DNA of 64,000 nt from Cyanobium sp. ATX 6A2 (lineage in GTDB: Bacteria; Cyanobacteriota; Cyanobacteriia; PCC-6307; Cyanobiaceae): NCBI RefSeq assembly GCF_024346355.1, contig NZ_JAGQCU010000003.1, forward strand, positions 124,001 to 188,000. Direction: 5' to 3'. Below are positions 32,676 to 37,084 of the stretch, piece by piece. A program made the translations under genes and the position numbers. The notes beneath the pieces are model-generated. The model made no database searches and was not told the origin of the DNA. It saw nothing but the letters and a program-made list of their open reading frames with translations. Position 1 is the stretch's first letter; each line of letters starts with the position of its first letter.

Positions 32676-32824
32676 GACGACTGGTGTGTAGTTCTTGAAG
32701 AATCACAACGGGTTTGCGGTGTTGGCGTGCCGTCGGACACCAATCGCTGCAGCGGTGTGCAAGGCCTCACAAAAGCGCCCCGCCTCCACGGCCCCGACCG
32801 CCCAGCCCCCAGCACCGCCCAGCC

Positions 32825-33760
32825 ATGGCCGCCCCGATTCCCCTGAAGCCCATTCCCCTGGAGCAGCTGCCGAGCCTGCCTCCCCTGCGCCTGGCCGTGG
32901 TGGGGCACGTGGAGGTGGTGAGCTTTGTGATGGTGGAGCGGTTGCCGCAGGCCGGCCTGGTGCAGACGGCCTGCCAGTGCCTGGAGCTGCCGGGCGGCGC
33001 CGGTGCCGTGGCGGCGGTGCAGCTGGCACGGCTCACCGGTGCGCCGGTGCGTTTCTTCACGGCCCTGGGCCGTGACGCGCTGGGCGAGGCGGCGGCCCTG
33101 ACCCTGAGCGAACTGGGCCTCGACCTGCAGGTGGCCTGGCGTGATGCCCCCACCCGCCGTGGCATCAGCCTCTGCGATCGCTCCGGTGAGCGCAGCATCG
33201 TGGTGATCGGAGAGCGGCTGGGGCCGCAGGCCGACGATCCCCTGCCCTGGCACGAGCTGGCCCACTGCGATGGCCTCTTCGCCAGCGCCGCCGATGCCGG
33301 GGCCCTGCACCTGGCCCGGGCCGCCCGCGTGCTTACGGCCACACCACGGCTGCGGCTGCAGGTGCTGCAGGAGGCGGGGGTGGCAGTCGATGCCCTGATC
33401 GGCAGCGCGCTGGATCCGGCCGAGCAGGTGCCTGCCGGCGCCCTGCAGCCCCCACCGACCCTGCGCATCGCCACCGCCGGGGCCGCGGGAGGCCAGGCGG
33501 AGCCGCTGGGTCCGTTCGCCGCGCCGCCGCGGCAGCAACCGGTGGTGGACAGCTACGGCGCCGGCGACAGCTTCGCGGCAGGCGTGACTGCAGGCCTGGC
33601 TGCCGGCTGGAGCCCGGAGCAGGCGATCAGCCTGGGCTGTCACTGCGGCAGCGCCTGCCTTGATGGCCTGGGGCCCTATGCCAGCCAGCTGTGCTGGCAG
33701 GGCGGAGCCTGGCGTCAGGCCGGTATCGGCACGACGTCCCCATCCAGGCGGGCGAAGTAG
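32825..33760 (+). CDS. PfkB-family sugar/nucleoside kinase
   Basis: 311 aa from the ATG at 32825. The N-terminal VVGHVEVVSFVMVERLPQ and GGAGAVAAVQLARL segments form the ribokinase substrate site, and DSYGAGDSFAAG near residue 249 is the PfkB signature with the catalytic Asp and anion hole. The substrate is not predictable; sugars and nucleosides are both possible. The 3' end overlaps the convergent carbonic-anhydrase-like gene by 46 bp. Confidence 0.87.
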   Translation: MAAPIPLKPIPLEQLPSLPPLRLAVVGHVEVVSFVMVERLPQAGLVQTACQCLELPGGAGAVAAVQLARLTGAPVRFFTALGRDALGEAAALTLSELGLDLQVAWRDAPTRRGISLCDRSGERSIVVIGERLGPQADDPLPWHELAHCDGLFASAADAGALHLARAARVLTATPRLRLQVLQEAGVAVDALIGSALDPAEQVPAGALQPPPTLRIATAGAAGGQAEPLGPFAAPPRQQPVVDSYGAGDSFAAGVTAGLAAGWSPEQAISLGCHCGSACLDGLGPYASQLCWQGGAWRQAGIGTTSPSRRAK

Positions 33761-34326
33761 AGCTGCACCGAGAGCTGCGGCTCCCGGGCCAGGATCTGGT
33801 CCCGTGCGCGCCGCAGGGTGCGGGCATGGAACTCCTGCTCGGCCTGCAGGTCGAAGAAGGGTTCCGGGTGGATGGCGGCGTAGGCGCCGCAGTCCTGGTG
33901 ATCCACCAGGATCACCTCAGGGATGTGATGGAGAGAGCGCGAGAGCTGCAGCTGATCCCAGAAGGCGCGGGCGTCGGCGCGGTGGGGGAAGCCTGTGAGG
34001 GCCAGGGAAGCCCCCGCCAGGGCCACCCAGTCGACGGCGCCGCTGAGCTGCTGCCGGGCCAGGAAGGCGTGCTCCTGCTCCACGAAGCGGAAGTCGATGC
34101 AGCTGAGCACCAGGGCTCTGGCCTGCTCAACAGGGGGCGCCGGATCCTCGGCCCCCGCCCGCCGGGGCAGCAGCAGGCCGGCGCCACCGGCCAGGGCGAC
34201 GCCGGCGAGCCGGCCAAGCAGCTGCCGCCGGGAGAGCGCATCGCTGCCGCCGCGCCTGGGACGGCAGCAGGGGCAGCGGCAAGGGATGGGTTGCACCGGC
34301 TGGTGCGGGGACGTTCCGGCCTCCAT
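33715..34326 (-). CDS. Beta-carbonic-anhydrase-like protein with Tat-type signal
   Basis: 203 aa. The N-terminus is Cys-rich (CRCPCCRP) then SRRQLLGRLAGVALAGGAGL, a twin-arginine-like signal with R33-R34 and an AGA cleavage-like site near 59. The mature part has a beta-carbonic-anhydrase zinc pattern: C76 with the Asp-x-Arg dyad (SCIDFRF; D78, R80) and H143-x-x-C146 (DHQDCGAYA). That is what a Cys/His/Cys zinc site with the Asp-Arg dyad requires. The chain is short and the rest is divergent, so activity is uncertain. It may be exported to the periplasm or thylakoid lumen. Confidence 0.7.
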   Translation of the reverse strand: MEAGTSPHQPVQPIPCRCPCCRPRRGGSDALSRRQLLGRLAGVALAGGAGLLLPRRAGAEDPAPPVEQARALVLSCIDFRFVEQEHAFLARQQLSGAVDWVALAGASLALTGFPHRADARAFWDQLQLSRSLHHIPEVILVDHQDCGAYAAIHPEPFFDLQAEQEFHARTLRRARDQILAREPQLSVQLYFARLDGDVVPIPA

Positions 34327-34364
34327 GGCGGCCAGGCTATGGAGCAGCAGGGTTGAAGCGGGCT

Positions 34365-35843
34365 ATGGGCAAACGACGGCGACCGCTGATCGGGGTGATG
34401 GGGGCCGGCGAGGGGGCCAGCCCCAGGGATCTGTCGCTGGCGGAGGAGCTGGGCCGGGCCATCGCCCGGCAGGGCTGGGGCCTGCTCAGCGGCGGGCGGC
34501 CCTGCGGGGTGATGGCGGCGGCCAGCCGCGGCGCCATGGCCGTGGACGGCCACCTGGTGGTGGGCCTGCTGCCGGATGACGGCGCCGGCGGCCGACGGGA
34601 GGAGACCGCGGCGGAGCTCGACGTGGCCCTGTTCACCGGCATGGGCCAGGCCCGCAACGTGATCAACGTGCTCAGCAGCGACGTGGTGGTGGTGTGCGGC
34701 GCGGGCGGTGCCGGCACCGCGTCGGAGGCGGCCCACGCGCTCAAGGCCGGTCGGCCGCTGCTGCTGCTGGCGACCGCGCAGCCCTGGATCGAGCTGTTCT
34801 CCTACCTCGATGCGGGCGTGTTGGTGTGCGCCACGGTGGAGGAGGCCATCGCCGCCATCGCCAACCGGCTGACCGGCGCGGCGGAGCCAGAGGCCGCCGC
34901 GGCATCCGGCGCTGCCAGCTCAGTGGGCCGAGAGGGCGGGCGCCTGCCCGTGGCCCTGGTGCAGCTGCAGGCCGGCGAGGACGCCGCCGCCAACCGCCGC
35001 CACGCCGAAGCCTGGCTGGAGCGGGCCCTGCAGCCCCGCCCGGGCCTCCCGGCGCCGCGGCTGCTGATGCTGCCGGAGATCTGGAACGCCCCCTACGCGG
35101 CAGAGCGGTTCACGGACTTCGCCGAGCCCATTCCCGAACCCGGCAGCTCCCTGCTCGATGGGCCCTCAGCATCGCTTTCGATGGTGGCGCGGCTGGCGCG
35201 GCGCCACGGCGTGGCGGTGATCGCCGGTTCGATCCCCGAGCGCGGCGCCGATGGACGGCTCTACAACACCGGCACCGTGATCGACGCGCAGGGGCGGCTG
35301 CTGGCGAAGCACCGCAAGCTGCACCTCTTCGATGTGGACGTACCAGGCGGCATCCGCTTCCGCGAATCCGACAGCCTCAGCCCCGGCCAGCGGCTCACGG
35401 TGCTGCCGGGGGAGGGCGACCCGCTGGCCACGGGTCTCGCCGAACCGCCGAGCCTGGGCCTGCTGATCTGCTACGACATCCGCTTCCCGGAGCTGGCCCT
35501 GCTGATGCGACAACGCCACGGCTGCGCGCTGCTGGCCTGTCCCGCGGCCTTCAACACCACCACCGGCCCGCGCCACTGGCACCTGCTGATGCGTGCCCGT
35601 GCGGTGGATAGCCAGTGCTTCCTGCTGGCCTGCTCCAGCGCCCGCCCGCTCGGTGGCGAGGGCTATCCGAGCTACGGCCATTCGCTGGTGGTGGACCCCT
35701 GGGGCACGGTGATCGCCGAAGCCGGCATCGGCGAGCAGGTGCTGCATGCCGAGCTGGATCTTGAGCAGGTGGCCCTGGCCCGCCAGGCGATCCCCACCGG
35801 CTCCCAGCGCCGCCGCGATCTCTACCGCCTGGAGCCCGCGTGA
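34365..35843 (+). CDS. Fused SLOG (LOG/TIGR00725-like) and nitrilase-superfamily protein
   Basis: 492 aa from the ATG at 34365. Residues 1-170 form a Rossmann SLOG domain: LIGVMGAGEG, GWGLLSGGRPCGVMAAASRG and the GAGGAGTASEAAHAL loop that replaces the PGGxGTxxE motif of cytokinin-activating LOG enzymes. After a short Ala-rich linker, 194-492 form a carbon-nitrogen hydrolase with the full triad E238 (MLPEIW), K318 (KHRKLHLFD) and C369 (LLICYDIRFPE), like omega-amidase/Nit2. Both halves look functional. The next gene starts on the last base of this stop codon (TGATG). Confidence 0.88.
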   Translation: MGKRRRPLIGVMGAGEGASPRDLSLAEELGRAIARQGWGLLSGGRPCGVMAAASRGAMAVDGHLVVGLLPDDGAGGRREETAAELDVALFTGMGQARNVINVLSSDVVVVCGAGGAGTASEAAHALKAGRPLLLLATAQPWIELFSYLDAGVLVCATVEEAIAAIANRLTGAAEPEAAAASGAASSVGREGGRLPVALVQLQAGEDAAANRRHAEAWLERALQPRPGLPAPRLLMLPEIWNAPYAAERFTDFAEPIPEPGSSLLDGPSASLSMVARLARRHGVAVIAGSIPERGADGRLYNTGTVIDAQGRLLAKHRKLHLFDVDVPGGIRFRESDSLSPGQRLTVLPGEGDPLATGLAEPPSLGLLICYDIRFPELALLMRQRHGCALLACPAAFNTTTGPRHWHLLMRARAVDSQCFLLACSSARPLGGEGYPSYGHSLVVDPWGTVIAEAGIGEQVLHAELDLEQVALARQAIPTGSQRRRDLYRLEPA

Positions 35844-37084
35844 TGGCCGGCACAGCCCTGACCGGTACGGTCCTGGTCTGGTCCCTGCTGCTGCTGAGCG
35901 CCGCGGCGGCCCTGGGGCTGTCGATCCTGCTGGGGGGCCTGGCCTGGGTGTTTGCGCGGGCGCCAAGGCTGGCGGCGCTGCCCGAGCCGGATGAGCAGGC
36001 CCAGCCACCGGAGGGCTCACTCACGGTCGTGGTGCCCGCCTACAACGAGGCCGCCAACATCGGCCCCTGCCTCAGCAGCCTGCTGGCGAGCGCGGCGCCC
36101 TGCTCCCACTGGCGGGTGCTGCTGGTGGACGACGGCTCCAGTGACGACACGGTGACGATCGGGCGCCAGGCGTCGGCACAAGCGCTGAACGAGGCGGACG
36201 CTTCGGCGGAGCGCTTCGCGGTGCTGGATGCCGGCCCGCGGCCGGCGGGGGAGCGCTGGGTGGGCAAGACCTGGCCCTGCACGCGGGTGATGGAGGAGGT
36301 GGACAGTGACTGGGTGCTGTTCGTGGATGCCGATGTGCGCCTGCAGCCCACGGCCCTGCGCCGCGCCCTCGGCCAGGCGGTGGCCGAGCAGGCCGATCTG
36401 CTCAGCCTGGCGCCAAGGCTGAGCTGCGGCTGCCTGGCCGAGTGGATGGTGCAGCCGATCATGGTGAGCCTTCTGGGGCTGGGCTTTCCAATCGAGGCGG
36501 CCAACGATCCGGCCAGTGCGGTGGCCTTCGCGGCCGGGCCGTTCATGCTGTTCAGGCGTTCGGCCTACGAGGCCATCGGCGGCCACCGCGCCCTGGCGGG
36601 GGAGGTGGTGGAGGATCTGGCCCTGGCGCGGCGGATCAAGGACACGGGCCACCGCCTGCGCTACCTGCTGGGCCTGGATGCGGCCGAGCTGCGCATGTAC
36701 GCCAACTTCCCCGCCCTGTGGGAGGGCTGGACCAAGAACTGGCTGCTGGGCCTGGGCGGCAATGTGCCCGCTGCCCTGGGCGCCGCCGCCGTGGTGCCGC
36801 TGATGTTCAGCGGCCCCTGGCTGCTGGCTCCGGCAGCGGCGATCGCGGCGCTGGCGCTGCCCGCTGAGCGGATGCTGCTGCTGGCGGCCCTGGCGCTGAC
36901 GGTGCTGTGCATCGGCCTGCAACTGGCCCTGCGGCTGTGGATGCGATGGCAGTTCGCCCTGCCCCTGCGTCACTGGTGGCTGATGGGAGCCGGCGGCCTG
37001 GTGGTGGCGGGCATCGGCCCCACCTCGGTGTGGCGCACGCTCACCGGCCGGGGGTGGACCTGGAAGGGCCGGCCCCTGGGCTGA
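35843..37084 (+). CDS. Membrane glycosyltransferase family 2
   Basis: 413 aa from the ATG overlapping the previous stop by one base. One N-terminal membrane helix, then a GT-A domain: VVVPAYNEAANIGPCLSSLL, VLLVDDGSSDDT, the DxD-type FVDADVRL, AGPFMLFRRSAYEAIGGH, and the acceptor-site ED in VVEDLALARRIKD. Three or four C-terminal helices follow. The layout resembles HpnB- and carotenoid-type GT2 enzymes that glycosylate lipids; the acceptor is not predictable. Probably cotranscribed with the SLOG-nitrilase gene. Confidence 0.85.
   Translation: MAGTALTGTVLVWSLLLLSAAAALGLSILLGGLAWVFARAPRLAALPEPDEQAQPPEGSLTVVVPAYNEAANIGPCLSSLLASAAPCSHWRVLLVDDGSSDDTVTIGRQASAQALNEADASAERFAVLDAGPRPAGERWVGKTWPCTRVMEEVDSDWVLFVDADVRLQPTALRRALGQAVAEQADLLSLAPRLSCGCLAEWMVQPIMVSLLGLGFPIEAANDPASAVAFAAGPFMLFRRSAYEAIGGHRALAGEVVEDLALARRIKDTGHRLRYLLGLDAAELRMYANFPALWEGWTKNWLLGLGGNVPAALGAAAVVPLMFSGPWLLAPAAAIAALALPAERMLLLAALALTVLCIGLQLALRLWMRWQFALPLRHWWLMGAGGLVVAGIGPTSVWRTLTGRGWTWKGRPLG

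Follow-up and report, generated by a model that had tools for sequence, protein, structure and literature searches.

The Fused Gene and Its Surroundings

The window, meaning the whole stretch of DNA analysed here (64,000 nucleotides from Cyanobium sp. ATX 6A2), contains an open reading frame (ORF) in which a domain of the Moco carrier protein (MCP) type, bearing the SLOG fold, is followed by a nitrilase-type amidase. The parts of this ORF and its immediate neighbours are the following.

34365..35843, + strand: fused MCP-type/nitrilase ORF (ATG at 34365, stop at 35841-35843, 492 aa)
34377..34880, + strand: Moco-carrier-type SLOG domain, residues 5-172 (PF18306, phmmer, and predicted fold)
34497..34499, + strand: R45, equivalent of Arg42 in the anion/phosphate site of the Rippkaea orientalis MCP (mapped by hand on the alignment; role as given in the available text of PMC7470044)
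34653..34655, + strand: R97, equivalent of MCP Arg89 (alignment; available text of PMC7470044)
34698..34727, + strand: loop GAGGAGTASE, residues 112-121, at the position of the LOG motif PGGxGTxxE; T118 corresponds to MCP Thr109
34743..34745, + strand: K127, equivalent of MCP Lys118, which contacts the docked phosphate from the neighbouring protomer (alignment)
34881..34928, + strand: predicted flexible linker, residues 173-188 (pLDDT <50; alignment of the six fusions)
34941..35834, + strand: Nit2/Nit3-type nitrilase (omega-amidase-like) domain, residues 193-490 (PF00795; matches to 1f89 and 2w1v)
35076..35078, + strand: catalytic Glu E238, aligned with the LPEC Glu of 2w1v
35316..35318, + strand: catalytic Lys K318, aligned with 2w1v and 1f89
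35469..35471, + strand: catalytic Cys C369, aligned with 2w1v and 1f89
35840..37084, + strand: GT2-family glycosyltransferase, downstream neighbour whose start overlaps the stop of the fusion
32714..33760, + strand: PfkB-family sugar kinase, neighbour of the fusion
33715-34326, - strand: Pro_CA_2 gene (putative carbonic anhydrase), upstream of and divergent from the fusion

The reading frame is uninterrupted across the 492 codons, and a TTG at 34353 offers an alternative start. Pfam recognises LDcluster4/SLOG (PF18306) in residues 8-161 with 140.1 bits (cut-off 26.3, E 5.6e-41) and CN_hydrolase (PF00795) in residues 196-474 with 186 bits (cut-off 23.2, E 1e-54). Together with in-frame homologues in five other genomes, these matches bear out the sequence-only reading, which had described a genuine two-domain protein. 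A scan for promoters and terminators between 34200 and 36000 found nothing.

The glycosyltransferase gene is kept beside the fusion in two other genomes (G561 and G572) and does not adjoin it in G054. The Pro_CA_2 gene sits between the kinase gene and the fusion in the window's genome (G000) and in G561, and is absent from that place in G054.

The N-Terminal Half

The N-terminal domain belongs by its sequence to SLOG cluster 4, and within this cluster both sequence and predicted fold assign it to the MCP type. Among solved sequences, phmmer finds the MCP of R. orientalis (6y01, E 7e-35) and that of Chlamydomonas (2iz5, E 3e-30), followed by the unnamed or uncharacterised entries 1rcu and 3qua, with the first chain named as a LOG at E 4e-5. 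Because a fold search with the full-length model returned only nitrilase rows among the best 50, the MCP half was also folded alone (pLDDT 90.0). This model matches 6y01 with a Z of 28.1 (rmsd 1.4, 162 residues, 47% identity) and 2iz5 with 27.3, the best LOG entry reaching 19.9, and the order in Foldseek is the same, with the MCPs ahead of LOG. The likeness to the solved MCPs extends to the Rossmann fold, the order of its elements, the equivalents of Arg42, Arg89, and Thr109, and an identity of 46-47% across the aligned fold. However, these MCPs are stand-alone homotetrameric proteins of about 160 residues, as described in the available text of PMC7470044, whereas the fusion carries an amidase, and the positions of Ser67 and Lys118 differ or vary.

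The sequence-only reading had recognised a SLOG Rossmann domain here and linked it to the LOG glycosidases; the domain holds, but the glycosidase does not. Models of the LOG family score far under their cut-offs (NF058542, 31.5 of 300 bits; TIGR00730, 38.6 of 96.35; PF03641, 14.2 of 27). With the LOG cytokinin riboside 5'-monophosphate phosphoribohydrolases, the fusion has in common the SLOG fold and the GTxxE of the phosphate-binding loop, but the loop at residues 112-121 reads GAGGAGTASE, exactly as had been pointed out, so that PGG is missing and the motif PGGxGTxxE is incomplete. On the alignment, A96 precedes R97 in the same order as in the R. orientalis and Chlamydomonas MCPs. MCPs were excluded from the LOG family by Seo and Kim for not keeping the motif and the catalytic Arg, and they hold an Ala at that Arg and a different active site, according to the available part of their article (PMC5379747). 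The LOG label for this half was thus rejected on the sub-cut-off models, the missing PGG, and the nearer sequence and fold of the MCPs.

Two other matches deserve mention. TIGR00725, a hypothetical equivalog, gives 82.1 bits, under its cut-off of 106.9, as it also does for two stand-alone relatives (91.7 and 92.6). The sole match in a PADLOC defence search is PsyrA (19.1 bits, E 1.4e-4, residues 10-71), which was read as fold similarity, and a defence role was discarded.

Arg42, Arg89, Ser67, and Thr109 hold the chlorides bound in the R. orientalis MCP, with Lys118 of the neighbouring protomer joining them in docking, as reported in PMC7470044. Mapped by hand on the sequence alignment, these residues correspond to R45, R97, D71, T118, and K127. 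R45, R97, and T118, as well as E121, are invariant in all 20 aligned homologues, six fusions included, and the anion/phosphate site can thus be regarded as conserved at the level of the aligned residues; the concern that the SLOG half might lack any ligand pocket finds no support in the alignment. The Ser67 position is occupied by D71 in the fusion, without conservation of the Ser. The Lys118 position holds K in four fusions, G in G054, and R in G607, and among stand-alone MCPs it holds N in 10 family rows of the alignment and K in G079.

The C-Terminal Half

The C-terminal half is, by sequence and predicted fold, of the Nit2/Nit3 (omega-amidase) type and not of the Nit1 type. Its triad is complete, with E238, K318, and C369 at the positions where they had originally been proposed. 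Its relatives in sequence are yeast Nit3 (1f89, 246 bits) and mouse Nit2 (2w1v, 217), with worm NitFhit third (1ems, 150), and in predicted fold 2w1v (Z 40.0), 1f89 (36.9), and NitFhit (34.7). Fold, triad, and an identity of 43-44% are thus common to Nit2/Nit3 and the fusion, which adds the N-terminal MCP-type domain.

A paralogue encoded in the same genome (L001) behaves differently, finding 1ems first (190.6 bits) and 2w1v at 149.6; its nearness to NitFhit indicates that the Nit1- and Nit2-type enzymes are separate proteins in this genome. Nit1 models give the amidase half 127.3 of 500 bits (NF043013) and 106.9 of 355 (NF033621), but since the Nit1-type L001 falls short of both thresholds as well (193.7 and 166.1, respectively), the cut-off alone cannot discriminate, and it is the order of the solved relatives that does. 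On this basis, an identity as Nit1, or deaminated-glutathione amidase, was ruled out for the C-terminal half. Deaminated glutathione is the substrate of Nit1, and Nit2 is the omega-amidase, in the available text of PMC9913352; the substrate of omega-amidase is alpha-ketoglutaramate in the portions available of PMC6302742 and PMC12864753. The sequence-only reading, which had offered both substrates, was therefore right about the Nit2/omega-amidase sub-family, but the glutathione branch belongs to Nit1 and the separate L001.

NitFhit from Caenorhabditis elegans (1ems) resembles the fusion in joining a branch-10 nitrilase to a nucleotide-binding domain which other organisms encode separately, as described in PMC9913352. 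However, NitFhit combines a Nit1-type enzyme with a C-terminal Fhit, while the fusion combines a Nit2-type enzyme with an N-terminal MCP-type domain.

Distribution and Origin

The fusion is a real, rare, and lineage-restricted architecture. Among 400 genomes of Cyanobiaceae, 35 have a match, comprising 6 with the fusion, 12 with the amidase without a full MCP domain, and 17 with an MCP without this amidase, in a survey at E 1e-44 with three candidates scored per genome, where a weaker second half could be missed. The fused genomes are G000, G054, G561, and G572 of one genus (g1), and G644 and G607 of another (g8). The five other fusions are full-length, in frame, and 78-91% identical to the window's protein, which rules out an assembly or frame artefact; the suspicion of a lone misjoined copy, for which a search across cyanobacteria had been suggested, is dispelled by these two genera. 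In an order-level sample of 150 genomes, 2 are fused, and in a phylum-wide sample of 386, G000 and G054 are the full-length ones among the matches listed, near the top of which a fusion would rank.

Outside the fusions, no gene linkage ties the two families together. With three candidates scored per genome at E 1e-44, MCP and amidase were not seen as separate genes in any of the 400 family genomes, and a PF18306 search shows no MCP-grade match in 7 of the 12 amidase-only genomes. An MCP profile scan of 80 nitrilase loci, many of them short and with ORFs <80 aa left out, was positive at 2, both fusions, and found no MCP-type ORF near the nitrilase genes of the 78 others.

One amidase-only genome, G030, retains a stub of the MCP domain. 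Its amidase ORF carries 20 MCP residues in frame (80% identical, E 1.6e-5) and starts with RRPLIGVTGAGEGADPRAL, identical to G644 at 17 of 19 positions, continuing into the linker and the amidase. The distance between the DNA matches on either side of the break is 444 nt shorter than in G644 and 453 nt shorter than in G607, an in-frame difference, and the stub is best read as a loss of the MCP domain. For the other 11 amidase-only genes, a search of the 1.2 kb preceding each at E 1 detected no remnant of the MCP domain.

A single fusion event among Cyanobium-like picocyanobacteria is the probable origin, although the trees neither establish nor reject it. The six fused amidases fall together with weak support (67/72), and one-clade tests gave a p-AU of 0.309 for the six fused MCP halves and of 0.208 for the fused amidases plus G030, neither being rejected. 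Second trees were built for the MCP without G079, which fills 20% of the columns, and for the amidase without L092, L095, L109, L150, mouse Nit2, and the Nit1 paralogue. A PfkB kinase gene lies <=5 kb from the fusion in all five loci read, in both genera and in different orientation (the G572 flank is outside this count), which favours one origin. The kinase is found in 31 of 44 genomes examined, many of them without the fusion, and in G030 it lies far from the amidase.

Moco Genes and Neighbourhoods of Stand-Alone MCPs

Where the MCP match is strong (PF18306 E <1e-30), MoaA is encoded in 14/14 genomes, versus 79/136 others, and both the MoaA C-domain and a molybdopterin oxidoreductase (PF00384) were found in G000 and in all 16 genomes examined, namely 15 with an MCP domain plus G030. 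Such co-occurrence would fit a Moco role, but genome size and phylogeny confound the comparison. In the window's genome, the Moco locus lies on contig C42 and the fusion on C23, with no linkage between them. No Moco genes were found beside the stand-alone MCPs of other cyanobacteria among ten neighbours scanned at four loci; these encode transport proteins, DUF6714, UbiA, SodC, alpha/beta hydrolases, an exosortase, and one protein without a match. The three neighbours scanned at amidase-only loci (one without a match, a GST, and an epimerase) point to no common function.

A small Cys-rich ORF of about 95-110 aa, named c1, lies whole or in part directly upstream of 18 of the 21 stand-alone family MCP copies read, with its stop codon overlapping the start of the MCP gene or lying next to it (for example at L052:12141-12428; copies occur in loci L044-L055 and L183-L187). 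It forms a multi-copy family with many fragments, present in 40 of 48 genomes examined and with up to 11 matches in one of them, and Pfam recognises nothing in the two c1 ORFs that were scanned. As an operon clue to MCP function, c1 was rejected on account of its multi-copy nature, the lack of a Pfam match in the two scanned, and its absence beside the fusion.

In the window's genome, two c1 copies (L189:3053-4065 on contig C43 and L191:723-1732 on C26) are each followed downstream by an 88-aa ORF, identical at the two loci, and by a 78-aa ORF that differs little between them, which gives the impression of a segmental duplication; the 78-aa ORF we take to resemble a high-light-inducible (Hlip) protein. 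In several genomes the stand-alone MCP genes have multiplied, with two in G112, G107, and G137 and three matches in G567 and G516, and the multiplied genes (L052, L184, L049/L050, L045/L046) lie in places beside partial c1 copies. In G625 (L178:5576-8330), a different ORF precedes the MCP gene, and a 567-aa ORF, presumably similar to a GMC-type oxidoreductase, follows it.

Relationship Between the Two Halves

The full-length model (mean pLDDT 89.9) comprises two confident domains, joined by a linker (residues 173-188) with a pLDDT <50, and its pTM of 0.65 gives no firm relative placing of the domains. The structure prediction that had been suggested for the interdomain pocket thus yields both domains, but no defined interface between them. 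The linker varies in length and sequence among the six aligned fusions, all in frame. The six have no in-frame linker start codon in common (there is one GTG in G000 and one ATG in G644), but they do share two GTG codons where the amidase itself begins, from which a separate translation of the amidase could still take place.

Comparisons of dN/dS gave 0.28 (0.19-0.40) for the fused MCP core against 0.16 (0.11-0.23) for the stand-alone one, 0.70 (0.41-1.10) for the fused MCP C-lobe (residues 136-170) against 0.24 (0.13-0.35), and 0.23 (0.17-0.31) for the fused amidase against 0.13 (0.09-0.16), the ranges being codon bootstraps, the pairs non-independent, and the stand-alone sets comprising 11 of 21 MCP copies and, for the amidase, 6 of the 12 genes that lack the full MCP domain. 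The MCP core and the amidase are therefore under purifying selection, whereas the MCP C-lobe is relaxed and has drifted. Since the values of both halves are raised in the fusions by a similar factor, the MCP core is not singled out, and part of the rise in the fused MCP may be lineage-wide.

The protein can be interpreted as a Nit2-type omega-amidase with a tethered MCP-type domain, the two activities being largely independent, a reading given about an even chance of being correct. Sequences and models show two domains of identified sub-families, a complete catalytic triad, an anion/phosphate site with conserved residues, a linker predicted as disordered, and purifying selection on the MCP core and the amidase, and on these the reading builds. 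The amidase would hydrolyse alpha-ketoglutaramate and alpha-ketosuccinamate, derived from the transamination of glutamine and asparagine, with release of 2-oxoglutarate and ammonia. The MCP domain, judging from homology, would bind a phosphorylated ligand, for which Moco from the host's own synthesis is the likeliest candidate; the unlinked Moco locus, the absence of Moco genes among the ten neighbours scanned at stand-alone MCP loci, and the poor conservation of the Lys118 and Ser67 positions speak against Moco binding. Both halves would work largely independently on their tether, and the MCP domain would be dispensable to the amidase, as the stub in G030 is taken to suggest.

A rather unlikely alternative makes the MCP domain an allosteric or oligomerising sensor, in which the bound ligand, Moco or a different phosphorylated metabolite, acts as a switch for the amidase, or in which a tetramer of the domain assembles the amidase subunits. 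Signal nucleotides are ligands of SLOG domains elsewhere, for example in ThsA, which is among the fold matches here. The retention of the fusion in two genera, the invariance of R45, R97, T118, and E121, and an MCP core constrained about as strongly as the amidase (0.28 and 0.23) would all fit such a sensor. However, the variable, disordered linker and the pTM of 0.65 leave it without a defined interface, and the amidase dispenses with a full MCP domain in 12 of the 400 genomes, including G030 with its stub only.

Also improbable, though it accounts for several of the observations, is a near-neutral fusion, in which an MCP gene came to lie in frame ahead of an amidase gene, the MCP half being part-functional or decaying and the join biochemically meaningless. 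The G030 stub, the dN/dS of the MCP C-lobe (0.70 versus 0.24 in stand-alone copies), the absence of MCP-type ORFs near the 78 other nitrilase loci, and the narrow distribution speak for it; an MCP core at 0.28 (0.19-0.40) and site residues invariant in 20/20 rows, the six fusions among them, speak against it.

It is very unlikely that the MCP domain, Moco-loaded or empty, gates the omega-amidase and thereby couples Moco status to nitrogen signalling via 2-oxoglutarate, which is the nitrogen-status signal of cyanobacteria. The Moco would in that case be destined for nitrate reductase, and the gate would set the flow of glutamine-derived carbon into 2-oxoglutarate. Very unlikely, too, is the two-step enzyme of the sequence-only reading, a LOG-type hydrolase stripping a phosphoribosyl group before the nitrilase strips an amide, which could draw on the SLOG fold common with LOGs (Z up to 19.9), on the remaining GTxxE and an Arg near the motif, and on the PfkB sugar kinase near the fusion in 5/5 read loci, but for which no positive support emerged from an N-terminal half that is MCP-type by sequence and fold, with LOG models far under cut-off, PGG missing, A96 before R97 as in two solved MCPs, Ala reported at the LOG catalytic Arg of MCPs together with another active site (PMC5379747), and PfkB in 31/44 genomes, many fusion-free.

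Significance

The fusion represents a new architecture made of two known families. No paper on an MCP/SLOG-nitrilase fusion was found in the open PMC literature, and the words nitrilase and amidase are absent from PMC6147048.

A protein that naturally joins an MCP-type domain to a defined enzyme offers a handle for studying the cellular action of MCPs. Alongside NitFhit, it is another instance of a branch-10 nitrilase joined to a nucleotide-type binding domain, assembled from other parts, and in one relative, G030, the carrier half seems to have been lost. Should the two halves turn out to be uncoupled, the protein would usefully caution against inferring function from rare fusions.
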